Shown: one piece after another, positions 5,514 to 29,368 of the stretch
Layout: the number at the start of each line of letters is the position of its first letter
Position numbering within the stretch: position 1 is the first letter of the stretch
IMG/VR virus record: IMGVR_UViG_3300023180_007965
Coordinates: 20,455-84,454 of that record
DNA from: a virus
Reading direction: 5' to 3' (one strand)
Length of the DNA stretch: 64,000 nucleotides
The notes under the pieces: model-generated
Database searches by the model: none
What the model was told of the DNA's origin: nothing
The model's input: the letters and a program-made list of their open reading frames with translations, nothing else
Translations under genes and position numbers: made by a program

Positions 5514-5524
5514 GATATATAAAG
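5514..5524 (+). promoter_or_regulatory. Late-promoter-like motif GATATATAAAG before the protease-scaffold gene
   Basis: Exact consensus copy ending 23 bases before the ATG at 5548, in the 68-base gap after the 899-residue protein gene. It is the best candidate to drive the protease-scaffold and major capsid genes, because no such motif precedes the capsid gene itself. Confidence 0.6.
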
Positions 5525-5547
5525 TTAAATAATAGCAAAGTCAAGAA

Positions 5548-7563
5548 ATGAACGAGTCTTTATTGAATGGGAACCTTCTCTTCATCCTTGAAAAGCAAGA
5601 AAATAATCTTGCAGTTTCAAAGGACGGTAACTCGGATGGTGGTGGTTATATACTCAAAGGTATTGCTGCTCAGTTTGGGAAAGAGAATAATAACAATAGA
5701 ATATACGAGGAAGGTGAATACCTACCTCACCTTGAGTACCTAAAGGATAAGATAGGACAAAAGAGATTAGTTGGTGAATTAGATCACCCTGAAAAATTCG
5801 ACGTATCTCTTAAAAACATTTCTCACGTTGTAGAAGATCTTGTTTATGACAAGGACGGAAGAGTATTAAACATTAAGGTTCGTTTGCTTGACACACCAGC
5901 TGGACAAATTGCTAAGAAATTAGTTGATGCTGGTATACCTCTTTCTATTTCTTCTAGAGCAGCTGGAAATGTAGGTCCAGATAAGAAGGTACAGATCAAA
6001 AAGATCTTTACTTATGATTTGGTTGCAGATCCAGGTTTCCAAGACGCTCAACTCGAGAGAGTTTATGAAAGCGCTGGATTTGATGCTTTTGAATTTGAAG
6101 AAAGATCAAAAAAATCCGTTGTTAACAACTTAGAGTGTGTAAATGAGTCACTAGGTATAGAAAATGAATCTGGGGTAAAGATATATAAAGTTGAAAATAG
6201 CGAAGAATTCGAAAAAATCCTTAATCAAGAAAAAAATAAATCCAACATTATGGAGGCCAACAAAGAATATGTTACTGCTGACGAGCTTAATAAGTATTCT
6301 ATCTTTTTGAAAAATAAGATGGATGAGCTGGAAACGCAGATTTCTGAAATGAAACAACAAGAAGCTCAAGTTTCCGAGAGCGAAAGTGAATCTGTAGATT
6401 GCAAAGCTTTGGAGGAAAGAGTTGCTAAGCTAGAAAAGTACTCCGAGTATCTTGCTGAAAATCTAGAAAGTGCTATTAAGTACGGTGAGTATTTGTCAGA
6501 AAACCTAGATAGCAGCATTACGTATTCTAAGTACCTTGCTGAGAATCTAGACAAGACTATCTCTTATTCTAAGTATTTGGCCGAAAATGTTGATAAGGGT
6601 ATTTCTTACACTGAATATGTAGCTGAGAATGTTGATAAGACTATCGACTATTCTAAGTATTTGGCAGAAAAACTAGATGATGGTATTCAATATACAGAAT
6701 ACGTGGCTGAAAATCTTGATAAGAATATCGCTTACTCTGAATACTTAGCAGAAAATGTTGATAAGAACATTGCTTACTCTGAGTATTTGGCAGAGAATCT
6801 AGATAAGGGTATTTCTTACTCTGAATATCTAGCAGAAAACTTAGATAAGGGAATAGCTTACTCTGAGTACATTGCAGAAAAACTAGATCAAGGAATAAAC
6901 TACACTGAGTACCTAGCAGAAAACCTAAATAAAGGTATTGCTTACTCAGATTATTTAGCTGAAAAGCTAAATGGAAATATAGCTAACACTGAAGCTATAC
7001 ACGAAAGCGTTAAAGCAGAAAACTCGCCAACACTTAACGAAAGTGCTAGGGAAAATGCTGAAAGCGCATCTAAAACTGAATTGGTTGAATCAGGATTTGC
7101 TGGAGATTATGAAAATCTCGGAAGCAAGATTGATTCTCTAATTGAATCAGTCAAAACACAAAAGACTGAGGAAAATATAAATGAGGCACAAACGAAAGTT
7201 GAGCCGACTGCTCAAACACAAAAAGCAGATGAGGCAATCAACGAAGCCGAAGAAGAAACATTGGCAGGATCATCAGGTCACAAATTTATTGATGAAATGC
7301 CAGAAGATTACTCTCCGATTTGGGAGTCACTAAATGAAAGTCAAAAGCAATCAGTAATTGCACAATCAGCTTTCTATAACTTAGAGACTGCTTATCAGAT
7401 CAAGAACTTCTGGTCAACTCGTCAGCTTGGTGCTAAACCAGTAGGACTTCAGAAACTTCAAGAGAGCCAAGAAACACCAGAGCCTAAGACGGCTACTAAC
7501 CCTCAGGGGTATTCAAACGATTACCTTAATTGGGTCGCTAAGTCGCTCGAAGGTAAGTTTTAA
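5548..7563 (+). CDS. Prohead core protease (gp21-like) fused to repeat-built scaffold (gp22-like)
   Basis: Residues 1-190 match the T4 gp21-type serine protease family (peptidase family S77). VGELDHP gives the catalytic histidine at 80, and SISSRAAG (133-140) gives the serine at about 135. The His-Ser spacing of about 55 residues is that of the family. After a linker with a predicted coiled coil (about 235-297), residues 298-479 are thirteen tandem 14-residue repeats of the type YSEYLAENLDKGIA. The tail (about 480-671) is acidic, rich in NES/NEA sites, and ends in an aromatic segment. T4 makes protease gp21 and scaffold gp22 as separate proteins; at 671 residues this one joins both roles. The gene is directly upstream of the major capsid gene, as expected. 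Cleavage of its own repeats during maturation is inferred. Confidence 0.88.
   Translation: MNESLLNGNLLFILEKQENNLAVSKDGNSDGGGYILKGIAAQFGKENNNNRIYEEGEYLPHLEYLKDKIGQKRLVGELDHPEKFDVSLKNISHVVEDLVYDKDGRVLNIKVRLLDTPAGQIAKKLVDAGIPLSISSRAAGNVGPDKKVQIKKIFTYDLVADPGFQDAQLERVYESAGFDAFEFEERSKKSVVNNLECVNESLGIENESGVKIYKVENSEEFEKILNQEKNKSNIMEANKEYVTADELNKYSIFLKNKMDELETQISEMKQQEAQVSESESESVDCKALEERVAKLEKYSEYLAENLESAIKYGEYLSENLDSSITYSKYLAENLDKTISYSKYLAENVDKGISYTEYVAENVDKTIDYSKYLAEKLDDGIQYTEYVAENLDKNIAYSEYLAENVDKNIAYSEYLAENLDKGISYSEYLAENLDKGIAYSEYIAEKLDQGINYTEYLAENLNKGIAYSDYLAEKLNGNIANTEAIHESVKAENSPTLNESARENAESASKTELVESGFAGDYENLGSKIDSLIESVKTQKTEENINEAQTKVEPTAQTQKADEAINEAEEETLAGSSGHKFIDEMPEDYSPIWESLNESQKQSVIAQSAFYNLETAYQIKNFWSTRQLGAKPVGLQKLQESQETPEPKTATNPQGYSNDYLNWVAKSLEGKF
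6180..6190 (+). promoter_or_regulatory. Internal late-promoter-like motif inside the protease-scaffold gene
   Basis: A perfect GATATATAAAG, identical to the upstream promoter motif at 5514, falls at the junction between protease and scaffold parts. It encodes part of KIYKVEN in the fusion frame. An A-rich stretch and an in-frame ATG (6250) follow 60 bases later. It may drive separate scaffold expression. Confidence 0.4.
6250..7563 (+). other. Possible internally initiated scaffold-only product (437 residues)
   Basis: ATG at 6250 is in frame with the fusion (codon 235) and begins MEANKEYVTADELNKYS, right before the coiled-coil and repeat region. It is preceded by an A-rich leader like those of many starts in this window, and by the perfect promoter motif at 6180-6190. 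If used, it would give scaffold without the protease domain. Nested scaffold genes are known in other phages, for example lambda Nu3 within C. No direct proof is visible here. Confidence 0.35.
6439..6984 (+). repeat. Thirteen tandem 42-base (14-residue) scaffold repeats
   Basis: Thirteen in-frame units of 42 bases encode the consensus Y-S-E-Y-L-A-E-N-L-D-K-G-I-A, followed by one degenerate unit. Two heptads per unit fit a coiled coil. Most units contain L-A-E or V/I-A-E, resembling the [L/I]-x-E cleavage rule of gp21-type proteases. Synonymous differences between units show that this is old or selected repetition and not a fresh duplication. Confidence 0.9.
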
Positions 7564-7589: not shown

Positions 7590-9311
7590 ATGAAACTAAT
7601 CAACGAAGCAGAAATCTTCGAAACCTGGTCTCCTATCATCGAGCAGAAGGCCGGTATTCAAGATGCTGAAAAAAAAGGATGGTTGAGCAAGTACTGCCAC
7701 TACCATTCATTAAACGAGTCTGCTGGTGCATATCAGTCACTAGCAACTGTAAACGGTATGGGTGCCGTACAACCACCCGCATACCCAGGTGGGTATAACT
7801 CCACTGGTTCTGCAGTAGGTACGCAAGCAAATTCTGCTTTCTATAACTCTGCTAACCAAGGTTCAGGTGATAAGTTTCCTTCACTTCTTCCATTGGCAAT
7901 TCAGGTTGCTGCGAAGACTGTTGGATTCGATATCGTTCCTGTAATTCCTATGTCAGGTCCTACTGGCGTACTTTCTTACCTAGATTACGTATACTCAGGT
8001 GGTAAAATCAGTCCTGCATCTGCTGGCGCAACATCTGCTGAAGCTCTTGCAACTGCACCTTCTATGATCAAGGTAGAATTGACAACCCCTGCAGCAGGTT
8101 ATCCTGCTAACTTTGCAGTAGGTACTACTTACTACATCACTAACGCTTCTTCAGCTGGTGCATATATCACTACTGAGTTTGTTGGTCTATCTAGAATCGA
8201 TGCATTCCCAATCTTTAGAGTTATGGGATTAACTGCTGGTGAGACTATCTCTGCAGTTCTTGATGGTAACGCAGCTAAAATTGGTACTGCAGTAGATGGA
8301 AACCAAGCTGGTACTACAACTGCGAGAGCAGAATTGGTTAAAGCTCTTGAGGATCACATCCAAGGATTCTCTGGTGCTGGTTTCAACAACGACCAAGACT
8401 GGCAAGGACCATTCGTAGATGGTACTAAGACTTACAACCCAATGCTAAGAGGTGTTGGTGAGAGCACTTACTACCAATCAATGGGTCTATCAACGTTCAC
8501 TAAGTTCGTCGAAGCTGATACTTTCCAAGTAGCTGCTTCAGTAACTACTGAGCAGATCCAAGACCTTAACAAGCAATTCGGTATCGACGTAATTTCTATG
8601 ATCGAGAACGCATTGGTTAATGAGGTATCTCAAGCTATTAACAAGCACATCCTATCTAGAGCATTCGCTCTTGGTTGGTCTAACCACGACGAATTCTTGA
8701 CTACAGAAGGTCAGAACTTGAACCTAAACCTCGTTATCGGTGGTACTGCTGGTTCTTACACTATTCCTTCTTACATAGGTAAGTCTGACTCTGGTATCTC
8801 TATCGCTTCTGTTGCAGGTCCTGCTTCAGGAACTTACGAGAACTTGTCAACTCTACAGAGAAGACTATTCTCTAGAATTCTAGCATCTGCTAACGTGGTT
8901 GCTAACAGAGGAAGAAGAGGTCCTGCTAACTTCATCGTTACTAACGCTAACGTTGCAAGTGCATTGCAAGACATCTCTCAGTTCACTTTCGCACCTTTCT
9001 CTAACACTCTAACTCAGAACAACGGTACACTTTACCCAGTAGGTTCTCTTGCTGGTATGACCGTATATGTTGATCAGAACATGAAGTTCGGTGATAACAG
9101 AGTATTAGTAGGTAGAAAAGGTGGTGACGACGAACCAGGACTTAAGTTCATGCCTTACATGATGGCTGAGTCTATCCAAACAATCTCTGAAGGTACTATG
9201 TCACCTAAGATTGCGGTTAAGTCTCGTTACGCACTAGTAGAAGCTGGTTTCCACCCAGAAACTATGTACTTCTGTTTCCACGTGAACGTTCCTGCTGGAG
9301 GTCTATCCTAA
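7590..9311 (+). CDS. Major capsid protein, T4 gp23-like
   Basis: This 573-residue protein follows the protease-scaffold gene and fits gp23. The N-terminus (MKLINEAEIFETWSPIIEQ) resembles the start of gp23, with its LLNKWKPLLE wording. A segment reading FDIVPVIPMSGPTGVLSYL (about 113-131) matches the conserved FDICGVQPMNSPTG region. SLNES at 40-44 is a likely prohead-protease site, which would remove a 43-residue propeptide. The mature shell protein would be about 530 residues. The gene has clearly more C-ending codons (AAC, TAC, TTC, ATC) than its neighbours, as expected for the most abundant virion protein. It has no promoter motif of its own, so it probably depends on the motif at 5514. A strong terminator follows at 9340. 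Confidence 0.92.
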   Translation: MKLINEAEIFETWSPIIEQKAGIQDAEKKGWLSKYCHYHSLNESAGAYQSLATVNGMGAVQPPAYPGGYNSTGSAVGTQANSAFYNSANQGSGDKFPSLLPLAIQVAAKTVGFDIVPVIPMSGPTGVLSYLDYVYSGGKISPASAGATSAEALATAPSMIKVELTTPAAGYPANFAVGTTYYITNASSAGAYITTEFVGLSRIDAFPIFRVMGLTAGETISAVLDGNAAKIGTAVDGNQAGTTTARAELVKALEDHIQGFSGAGFNNDQDWQGPFVDGTKTYNPMLRGVGESTYYQSMGLSTFTKFVEADTFQVAASVTTEQIQDLNKQFGIDVISMIENALVNEVSQAINKHILSRAFALGWSNHDEFLTTEGQNLNLNLVIGGTAGSYTIPSYIGKSDSGISIASVAGPASGTYENLSTLQRRLFSRILASANVVANRGRRGPANFIVTNANVASALQDISQFTFAPFSNTLTQNNGTLYPVGSLAGMTVYVDQNMKFGDNRVLVGRKGGDDEPGLKFMPYMMAESIQTISEGTMSPKIAVKSRYALVEAGFHPETMYFCFHVNVPAGGLS

Positions 9312-19640: not shown

Positions 19641-20078
19641 ATGCCAAGAATAGACGATTATATTTCATTCAGCTCCAATAAGAAAAACAACGTTTCTAGC
19701 GAGTTTATCTTTTCAAAAGAACTGGGCTTGTTAGACGTTGAGGTTGTTAATAGGCCTCCTGAGATTTCTGATGTTGATTCGTTAGAATGTGAAATTGAAT
19801 ACAAGGTTGGCATAGAAAGAAGAAAAGATGGGATACAGGACCTGAACTTTTCTATAGAGGAAATAGAACTTGAAATTAAAGTCGACGATTATCCAAACGA
19901 ACAGAAGGAATTTGAATTTGATATAGTACCAGATGTAAACATCGCTATTCCTTCCATTGTAATCCAGAAGGGGTCGAGATTAGTCCCAACAGATCCTTCT
20001 TTTGCAAGAATTGATATGAGAAAGTCGATGAATCCCAAAGACTTCAGAATCCAAATACTCTTTGGAACCAATGAATAA
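19641..20078 (+). CDS. Hypothetical protein
   Basis: This 145-residue acidic protein begins MPRIDDYISFSSNKKN. Alternating hydrophobic and acidic residues in its middle (EIELEIKVDD) suggest beta-strands. No motif is recognised. It follows a late-promoter motif and overlaps the next gene by 8 bases, starting a run of tightly coupled genes that lead to the tail module. A structural or assembly role is possible. Confidence 0.55.
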   Translation: MPRIDDYISFSSNKKNNVSSEFIFSKELGLLDVEVVNRPPEISDVDSLECEIEYKVGIERRKDGIQDLNFSIEEIELEIKVDDYPNEQKEFEFDIVPDVNIAIPSIVIQKGSRLVPTDPSFARIDMRKSMNPKDFRIQILFGTNE

Positions 20079-27112: not shown

Positions 27113-29368
27113 ATGGGAATCAGAGCAACAGATAAGAATAGAAATTTATTTTTAAAGGGTTTTAAGTTATCCAATTCAGGAAAGAACGAAGACCCTACCT
27201 ATTTGGGTTTTAAGATCGTGTTTGATCCTGGTATACTTCCAATCAATCCTGATTATGGATGGGCTCCAAGTCCATTGTTAAGAGCCCAGAATTATACGCT
27301 TGATTCCGGTGCTGGAGCTGCTACTAATTTGCAAAACCCCTTCGGACAACCGCAGTATTTGAGAAGACAGAGCGACGTAACTTATTACTCTGCTTATAAT
27401 TACCTTCTAGAAAGGGAAGCAAATTTCCCTGGAGGCGACACACAAAGAAGAGCACAAGCATTAAGGCAATTTCAAAAACTTTTGCAGGAAATAAATACAA
27501 ATTCTCCTTGGTTTTTCCAATCCATAGAAGGACTTAATACACTTGATAAAATATCTAAAAGCGGATTTCAAGACCAAGAAGATGTAGACACATTCGATCC
27601 ACAAAGAACTAGAGACAAGGCTTTGGTAATAAATTGTCTGGAATCTTTAAACCTTAGAATAAGTGCCCTAGCAGATCTTTATAACCAAGCAACTTTTGAT
27701 GCTGATAATATGAGGTATTTGGTTCCTAGAAATCTAAGAAAATTCACCATGTGGATTTTTGTTACTGAGATTAGAAATTTTTTCAAGACAAGTAGGTTAA
27801 CAGCATCTAGTACAGCTTTATCTGCTATTGACAACTTAAGCTCTTTGCTTTCTACAAATAACAATCCAGGGTCATCTATTGTTTCACAAGAAAGTGGTCA
27901 ATATAGTGTAGATGGATTTAATCTTGGTTCTGAAACATCTCAAGGTGGTGGAGGTGGAGGTGCTTTTTCATCTTTTGTAAATAATGTTTTTAGCGGATCC
28001 GGTCTTCAAAACGACGTACAGGCTTTAACGAATCAGCAAGATCAAACCGGTATAAAGCCAGTTTTAATTTATGAGTGTAGCCAATGTGAGTTTGATTTTA
28101 GTGACAGTACTCCTCTAAAAAGCACTATAGATATGGGATCAAGTAATGCCGATCCAGAGGATCAGTCTTTTAGGATACATGTAGGAAAGGTTAGAACGAA
28201 AAACCAATACCCAAATATTAGGGCTGACAAAAAGCCTTTGGTTCTTGCGGATGGTTGGGATCAAAACAGATCGAGTTACCAATTCCTTGGGGACGATACA
28301 CTTTCTTTAGAGAGTTTTCTTGGACTTGGTCAGCAAGCTTTAACTAATGTGGTTTCGAATGCAGTATCTGATTTGGTAAACGAGGGCATTAATCAATTTA
28401 TAGATCCTGCTTTAAGTGGAATCGACCAGTCTTTATTAGGAAACATATATTCGTTTAACCCATCACAACTTGGTAGATTGACTAGTCAAAACGGATCTTT
28501 CGGTTTTAACAATTTGGAGAATTTTTTAAACGGGGCAGCTGAAACCGGAATTGATAATATATTCAAAGGAAACTTGCCGAACCCACAAACTATGGGTGAA
28601 GGTGGTCCGAAGGAAAGAGTGTATCCTCCAGTTCCTCCAACTGACGTATATGAAGGAGTACCTGGCGAAGATCTAGGAGTTCCTGATAGAGTGTATCCTC
28701 AGGTAAATGATGACGTTTACGAAAATGTTCCTGGTGAGGATCTAGGAGTTCCTGATAGAGTGTATCCTCAGGTAAATGATGACGTTTACGAAAATGTTCC
28801 TGGTGAAGATCTCGGAGTTCCTGATAGGGTGTATCCACCTAGTAGTGGTGATGCATATGATGACGTTCCTGGAACTGATTTAGGTGTTCCTGATAGAGCA
28901 TATCCACCTAGTAGTGGTGATGCATATGATGAAGTTCCTGGAACTGACCTTGGAGTTCCCGATAGGCAATATAAATTCGAAAGATCTGGGGATGTTTATG
29001 ACAATGTCCCTGGCGCTGATCTTGGCGTACCAGATCGAAATTATACTTCTAACCTAAACGATGACGTTTACACGGATAGGAATTTCACTACCGATTCTCT
29101 CGAAACCTCAAAAGTGTATGGTGAAAGTTCACAAGTATCCTCCAGAGGTGAATTAAGATCCCCAGAAAATAACTTTACACAACCTCCGGGAACAGTTTAT
29201 TCTTCTTCAAGAAAAAACCCGACCTCTGGCGAAATTGGAAACGTTTATCCAGTTACTAATGGTGATTTTATAATTGAGAATCCACTTAATTTGGGGAACT
29301 CAAAACCTGCTGATAAATATAATGTTAGCCTTGGTGATTATAACCCAGATGATTACGAGGAGCAATAA
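27113..29368 (+). CDS. Tail-tube/baseplate-associated protein with proline-rich repeats
   Basis: This 751-residue protein has an N-terminal part (about 1-400) containing YLGFKIVFDP, then LRKFTMWIFVTEIRNFF (about 206-222) and LIYECSQCEFDFS (about 319-331). This reads like the barrel of tube-family proteins, perhaps a tube initiator. A glycine run sits near 280-285. Residues 503-642 are six tandem repeats of about 23 residues (VYPQVNDDVYENVP then GEDLGVPDR). The tail (643-751) is Ser/Asn/Pro-rich. It lies between hub and spike genes. The repeat arm could be a flexible linker or act as a measuring or docking element; its role is not known. Confidence 0.5.
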   Translation: MGIRATDKNRNLFLKGFKLSNSGKNEDPTYLGFKIVFDPGILPINPDYGWAPSPLLRAQNYTLDSGAGAATNLQNPFGQPQYLRRQSDVTYYSAYNYLLEREANFPGGDTQRRAQALRQFQKLLQEINTNSPWFFQSIEGLNTLDKISKSGFQDQEDVDTFDPQRTRDKALVINCLESLNLRISALADLYNQATFDADNMRYLVPRNLRKFTMWIFVTEIRNFFKTSRLTASSTALSAIDNLSSLLSTNNNPGSSIVSQESGQYSVDGFNLGSETSQGGGGGGAFSSFVNNVFSGSGLQNDVQALTNQQDQTGIKPVLIYECSQCEFDFSDSTPLKSTIDMGSSNADPEDQSFRIHVGKVRTKNQYPNIRADKKPLVLADGWDQNRSSYQFLGDDTLSLESFLGLGQQALTNVVSNAVSDLVNEGINQFIDPALSGIDQSLLGNIYSFNPSQLGRLTSQNGSFGFNNLENFLNGAAETGIDNIFKGNLPNPQTMGEGGPKERVYPPVPPTDVYEGVPGEDLGVPDRVYPQVNDDVYENVPGEDLGVPDRVYPQVNDDVYENVPGEDLGVPDRVYPPSSGDAYDDVPGTDLGVPDRAYPPSSGDAYDEVPGTDLGVPDRQYKFERSGDVYDNVPGADLGVPDRNYTSNLNDDVYTDRNFTTDSLETSKVYGESSQVSSRGELRSPENNFTQPPGTVYSSSRKNPTSGEIGNVYPVTNGDFIIENPLNLGNSKPADKYNVSLGDYNPDDYEEQ
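28619..29038 (+). repeat. Six tandem ~69-base repeats encoding VYP...DLGVPDR units
   Basis: Six in-frame units of 23-24 residues share Y-P, D-V/A-Y, V-P-G-x-D-L-G-V-P-D-R. Units 2 and 3 are almost identical in DNA, while the others differ. This suggests ongoing expansion and contraction of the array. Confidence 0.88.

Follow-up and report, generated by a model that had tools for sequence, protein, structure and literature searches.

Background

In phage T4 the prohead protease gp21 and the core scaffold gp22 are encoded by two genes, the scaffold gene lying between those for the protease and the major capsid protein (MCP), and gp22, gp67 and gp68 are degraded to small peptides by gp21, as described in the available excerpts of PMC9958956 and PMC9026906. 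The gp22 sequence is dense in [LIV]xE motifs, with 20 sites in 269 aa at a mean spacing of 12.8, irregularly spaced and with no 14-residue repeat, and candidate sites are also found in the N-terminal part of the T4 capsid precursor. In herpes simplex virus UL26/UL26.5, according to the available text of PMC12474303, an N-terminal protease is fused to the scaffold with a release site, and a nested scaffold-only gene starts inside; two cut sites (R and M) are named in that text, which mentions no repeat ladder. The "prohead core scaffolding protein and protease" of Tenacibaculum phage PTm1 (locus L005 in our set, open frame at 5905) is a fused gene adjoining the MCP gene and by eye carries ~16-residue, Trp-anchored repeats with L-S-E, L-C-E, I-T-E and I-Q-E, unlike the repeat described below in both sequence and length. 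Phage lambda also nests its scaffold, Nu3, inside the protease gene C, with a protease of a different family, and we know of no such repeat there.

The window analyzed here, a 64,000-nt stretch of an 84,454-base virus record, resembles T4 in having a homologous protease (5jbl), a scaffold between protease and MCP and dense [LIV]xE sites, and differs from it in that protease and scaffold form one fused gene with exact periodicity. Its plan, a fused gene with a release site and probably a nested product, matches that of UL26/UL26.5 as far as the latter is described in the excerpted source.

A prohead protease fused to a scaffold

The open frame at 5548..7563 (+ strand) encodes a 671-aa fused prohead protease-scaffold protein that matches PHROG_207 (E 8.8e-33) and Pfam S77 (E 4.5e-7), and is followed at 7590..9311 (+) by a gp23-type MCP gene (Pfam Gp23, E 6.4e-41). 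The protease domain, 5548..6147 (+), ends at N199-E200; its Pfam S77 match scores 30 bits against a cut-off of 27, and profile comparison with 5jbl_A gave E 0.00068. Foldseek matched the predicted domain to T4 gp21 (5jbl_B; E 2.5e-8, TM(target) 0.74), with herpes proteases ranking next. H80, S135, S136 and D157 are invariant in 57 sequences, and H80 and S135/S136 are by their pattern the putative catalytic His and Ser. Sequence and fold similarity, together with the conserved His and Ser, place the domain in the Peptidase S77/T4 gp21 family. The remainder of the protein sits between the protease and the MCP and has more protease sites than expected, as befits a gp22-type core scaffold. The best explanation of 5548-7563 is that T4-type genes 21 and 22 have been joined.

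In an annotated phage collection, the nearest relatives were two records of 735 kb together with four genomes of uncultured phages, 462-642 kb in size; identity was 35-38%, and the alignments covered 69-94% of the protein. The source virus is a relative of the huge phages. According to the available part of PMC7162821, the Mahaphage clade takes in the five genomes above 634 kb, whose replication is predicted to occur in Bacteroidetes. Further loci were collected from IMG/VR, 46 from one scan and the best 80 of 570 relatives from a second, so the family is larger than the set used here. With six loci from annotated records and that of the window itself, the set came to 122, each with a match; 106 held a complete gene, and removal of near-identical sequences (90% identity over 70% length) left 63 representatives. 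By eye, two of these, L005 (PTm1) and L006 (Lak), do not have the repeat and were put aside, which leaves 61 repeat-bearing representatives.

Candidate release and capsid sites

The scaffold is probably released from the protease at the junction N199-E200/S201, 6142..6150 (+). N199 and E200 do not vary among 14 sequences, and all three residues are conserved at 90% or more in 57. Comparison of MCP N-termini pointed to HSLNE/SAGAY as the probable propeptide site in the window clade, the L001 clade having mostly SINE/NAY. At P3 these conserved candidate sites have L, I, M or V, at P2 they have N, Y, S or others, and at P1' S, N or others; in the window clade they are of the NE/S type. The repeat sites described below carry A, G or S at P2 and N or K at P1' (AE/N, AE/K); they are compatible with the conserved release and MCP sites of the family and not identical to them, differing at P2 and P1' from the NE/S of the window clade. 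The related protease of phage SPN3US prefers Ser at P1' according to the available text of PMC10052503. LAE/N and IAE/K are also present, as candidate sites, in T4 gp22. In L086, the candidate MCP site reads MFD/N and several repeat units have no Glu, which may reflect a drift of protease specificity.

The 14-residue array and its conserved glutamate

Thirteen contiguous 14-aa units of the form Y-x-x-Y-[LVI]-A-E-N-L-D-K-x-I-x occupy 6439..6984 (+), an exact fit to aa 298-479. An earlier note on this DNA had placed thirteen units there, each with [L/V/I]-[A/S]-E, and was exact in place, length and count; its appeal to the [L/I]-x-E rule of gp21-type proteases holds strictly for 11 of the 13, the two V-A-E units falling outside the strict T4 rule. 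Across the units P3 is L in ten, V in two and I in one, P2 is A in twelve and S in one, and P1 is E in all thirteen. TRF picks up the array with a period of 42 (12.6 copies, 68% matches), and 339 of 705 same-amino-acid codon pairs between the window's units use different codons. Among the 707 gaps between units in the family, 655 are zero, 20 are of 14 and 13 are of 15 residues, and 25 of the 52 non-zero gaps are multiples of 7. An AlphaFold model from 57 sequences shows a single helix over aa 285-488 at low to moderate confidence (block pLDDT ~34-71), with ~62-84 for the protease domain and a whole-model mean of 59.8; it replaced a first model (17 sequences, mean pLDDT 47.7) that was too weak. 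A helical array is plausible on this model, and neither model supports claims on contacts. Elsewhere in the window, a tandem 69-base repeat of PGEDLGVPDRVYPQVNDDVYENV type lies at 28661-28965 within ORF 27113-29368.

Conservation was scored in the 61 repeat-bearing representatives, each of the 14 positions being read with a detection profile blind to that position; poorly matching units are under-counted, since the profile was built from the window's units. E7 is the best conserved position (711/751, 0.44 bits), followed by Y1 (680/752) and Y4 (673/777), while position 14, the heptad twin of E7 on the same side of the helix, is the most variable (3.10 bits). When positions 5-7 were masked in the detection profile, 703 of 746 units had [LIV]xE and 600 had [LI]xE. 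Among 585 orthologous pairs from ten sequences with 13 units, the Glu codon differed silently in 252 and by amino acid in none. Degenerate units standing in register (18 cases, 17 distinct sequences) keep E7 in 13 of the 17, with a Glu background of 13%, although three of the 13 share one related type, so that the independent cases are fewer than 13. Tyr remains in 4 of the 17 at position 1 and in 3 at position 4 (8 and 6 when His and Phe are counted with it), whereas 15 have L, I or V at position 5 and 12 have L or V at position 9. Counting against this, E7 is missing from 4 of 7 units in L003, 4 of 11 in both L049 and L086, 3 of 11 in L084 and 4 of 12 in L112. The repeat Glu is itself under constraint, and a role as a protease site is the simplest explanation.

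Because Y1 and Y4 are conserved almost like E7, the three positions may instead make up a contact patch that recurs in every unit and touches neighboring rods or the shell, in a purely architectural rod that is cut only at the flanking [LIV]NE/S sites and released as one piece of ~300 residues, from VNE200 to LNE498. Such a rod would agree with units that mostly abut and with the many other gaps in multiples of 7, as a helix would favor, and also with the NE/S-type sites being those common to the MCP and recurring just past the array in several relatives. It fits poorly with the degenerate units, in which E7 persists where the tyrosines are mostly gone, with L003, where the tyrosines persist and E7 is lost, and with the clearing of the T4 scaffold as small peptides described in the excerpts of PMC9958956. 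We consider it unlikely, though the most serious of the alternatives. A ruler in which unit number sets core or head size, with cleavage at the units incidental, is less probable still. Unit number does vary from 9 to 17 among the 61 representatives, and rises with genome size across the four repeat-bearing genomes of known size, with 7 units at 462 kb, 12 at 634 kb, 12 at 642 kb and 14 at 735 kb; however, this trend rests on those four genomes only, the low count at 462 kb is due to units that are degenerate rather than absent, and a 541-kb Lak phage has, by eye, no such repeat. That the motif arose by chance or simply came along with recent copying of units, as a tandem repeat might suggest, is scarcely credible given the silent Glu codon differences above and orthologous units more alike than paralogous ones in 8 of 8 comparisons (0.68-0.93 against 0.60-0.65 amino-acid identity), and recent duplication was rejected on this likeness and on the synonymous codon divergence between units.

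Density of candidate sites across the scaffold

Support for cleavage of the scaffold by its own protease also comes from the number of sites outside the array. The window's scaffold (aa 201-671, array included) holds 27 [LIV]xE sites, compared to 13.1 in shuffled sequences, and an excess over shuffles was present in all 63 representatives, with z-scores of 2.8-6.8 that overstate independence because the sequences are related. The C-terminal scaffold region, 6985..7563 (+), contributes further sites at IHE486, LNE498, LVE514, LIE533, INE546, INE566, IDE583, IWE593, LNE597 and LQE639. If the window's protein were cut after every [LIV]xE from E200 onward, no piece would be longer than 42 residues, and the cuts in the array would fall 14 apart. 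The largest such fragment was significantly small in 55 of the 63 representatives and not so (p > 0.05) in eight (L004, L006, L092, L093, L099, L115, L116 and L119). In the five lineages with decayed E7 (L003, L049, L084, L086 and L112), other sites still keep the fragments at 48 residues or fewer.

The mirror motif E-x-[LIV] served as a control for the helix pattern. In the C-terminal region, outside the array, [LIV]xE is 2.24x as frequent as expected and the mirror 1.51x (60 of 61 repeat-bearing representatives; L076, whose release site was not recognized, was left out). In the linker the values are 1.58x and 1.29x, and [LIV]xK, at 1.69x, is as enriched there as [LIV]xE. Inside the array the mirror (3.83x) exceeds [LIV]xE (2.51x), so the test is silent for the array itself; any in-phase motif can be enriched there, and [LIV]xE enrichment inside the array was discarded as uninformative. 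The scaffolds of PTm1, with its unrelated repeats (2.55x, mirror 1.38x), and Lak (1.87x, mirror 0.97x) are enriched as well. As controls, three window ORFs that look coiled-coil-like by eye gave 1.01x, ten tail ORFs 1.24x (mirror 1.26x) and the MCP bodies of the window family 1.29x (mirror 1.29x).

Eight T4-type gp22 scaffolds, T4 and seven others, gave 1.98x (mirror 1.38x), and five mature gp23 proteins, four of them incomplete at the fetched end and with 70 residues removed by assumption, were without enrichment (0.75x, mirror 0.81x). The protease domain of the fused protein is itself enriched (1.85x, mirror 1.14x), as are four gp21 proteases (2.16x, mirror 1.13x), which may be explained by the degradation of gp21 pentamers by each other, as described in the available text of PMC9958956. 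Since gp22 and gp21 are enriched and mature gp23 is not, dense sites look like a general mark of proteins removed by gp21. At the level of sequence, [LIV]xE enrichment separates these scaffolds from capsid and tail proteins, and the site-density test with its mirror control offers a checkable way to recognize scaffolds removed by gp21-type proteases.

An internal promoter-like element and a conserved methionine

A promoter-like element, GATATATAAAGTT, stands at 5514..5526 (+), 34 nt before the ATG of the gene, and an exact internal copy lies at 6180..6192 (+); these two exact matches in the window compare to 0.01 expected. The internal copy falls within the gene's lowest synonymous-difference window, codons 210-218 (0.116 compared to a median of 0.50; 9-codon window, 23 window-clade sequences), which was again the lowest of 628 windows when L076 was left out. 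In the window clade, all 22 of 22 sequences have GATATATA at the internal position, and all 22 of 22 also have it 19-35 nt upstream of the open frame's first ATG; in L080 GATATATA is further downstream. The L082 clade has a different A-rich sequence, and its lowest synonymous window is again just before the Met (0.022 compared to 0.362), a drop to which A/T codon bias may contribute. The L001 clade shows a weaker drop ahead of the Met (0.243 compared to a median of 0.459), constrained as well but not the lowest of that gene. The Met itself was matched by pattern in 57 of 61 representatives, and M235 is nearly invariant in 57 sequences. A probable scaffold-only product of 437 aa would start at this conserved Met235 (6250..7563, +).

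Only exact longer motifs exceed chance in the window. GATATATAA occurs seven times exactly, compared to 1.28 expected, whereas TATATAAAG at one mismatch (39 compared to 39.0 by chance) and GATATATAAAGTT at two mismatches (8 compared to 5.1) do not stand out. GATATATAA is a candidate for the phage's late-promoter motif. Its copies at 1940, 16950 and 19609 lie in intergenic gaps, 25-32 nt before the likely starts of ORF 1970 (GTG), ORF 16975 and an ORF starting at 19641, and two of the seven (2700 and 21488) lie inside genes. In 7 of 8 T4-type phages TATAAATA is found 25-88 nt before gene 22, and in one record it carries a promoter annotation; the internal element may therefore descend from a promoter of gene 22 that was retained when the genes fused. 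From the motif, the synonymous constraint and the conserved Met, the internal element and Met235 probably make scaffold without protease. In the open-licence literature, as far as it was accessible in part, we found no matching description of scaffold expressed from a nested or internal start. Metatranscriptome data are available for bS21 phages of Bacteroidetes (PMC9723584). In the C-terminal scaffold, synonymous difference is also very low at codons ~567-572 of L001 and ~551-554 of L055, perhaps marking another overlapping element.

Discussion

Given the fused gp21-type protease, the fit of the motif, the constraint on the repeat Glu and the enrichment of [LIV]xE, the proposal of the earlier note that the scaffold repeats serve as cleavage sites is partly supported; a cut at every repeat is not supported, Glu having been lost from many units in L003, L049, L084, L086 and L112. 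We consider it moderately probable that the gene is a fusion with two products, a full-length protease-scaffold and a protease-free scaffold from the internal promoter and Met235, and that the scaffold assembles into long helical rods whose units of 14 residues span two heptads. Upon prohead closure, the protease would free itself at VNE200/S, trim the capsid protein at LNE/S and cut at the closely spaced [LIV]-x-E sites of the scaffold, among them many, or all, of the repeat sites. Cleavage in the array would yield 14-mers of NLDKGIAYSEYLAE type, and the scaffold would leave the head as short peptides, of 14 residues from the array and at most 42 from elsewhere.

The principle of a scaffold dismantled by its protease, which the earlier note had thought undescribed, is T4's: gp22 is already cut to peptides at L/I-x-E, and the repeat scaffold is therefore a regular variant of a known mechanism. 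What is new is the regular 14-residue form in a fused and probably nested gene. No description of a regular 14-residue cut-site scaffold was found among the matches listed from the partly accessible open-licence literature, and the titles and abstract beginnings of the open-licence papers among the matches listed held nothing on point about repeats in prohead scaffolds.

More tentatively, the structural repeat may at the same time be the repeat that the fused protease recognizes, giving uniform 14-mers on maturation, with further scaffold made from a hidden promoter and start, a herpesvirus-like nesting kept when genes 21 and 22 fused; we hold this combined reading to be possible rather than probable. 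If true, it would explain how a very large shell is assembled and emptied in the largest known phages, would provide a simple periodic substrate for reading the specificity of gp21-type proteases, and would link the two-gene core of T4 to the nested protease-scaffold gene of herpesviruses.
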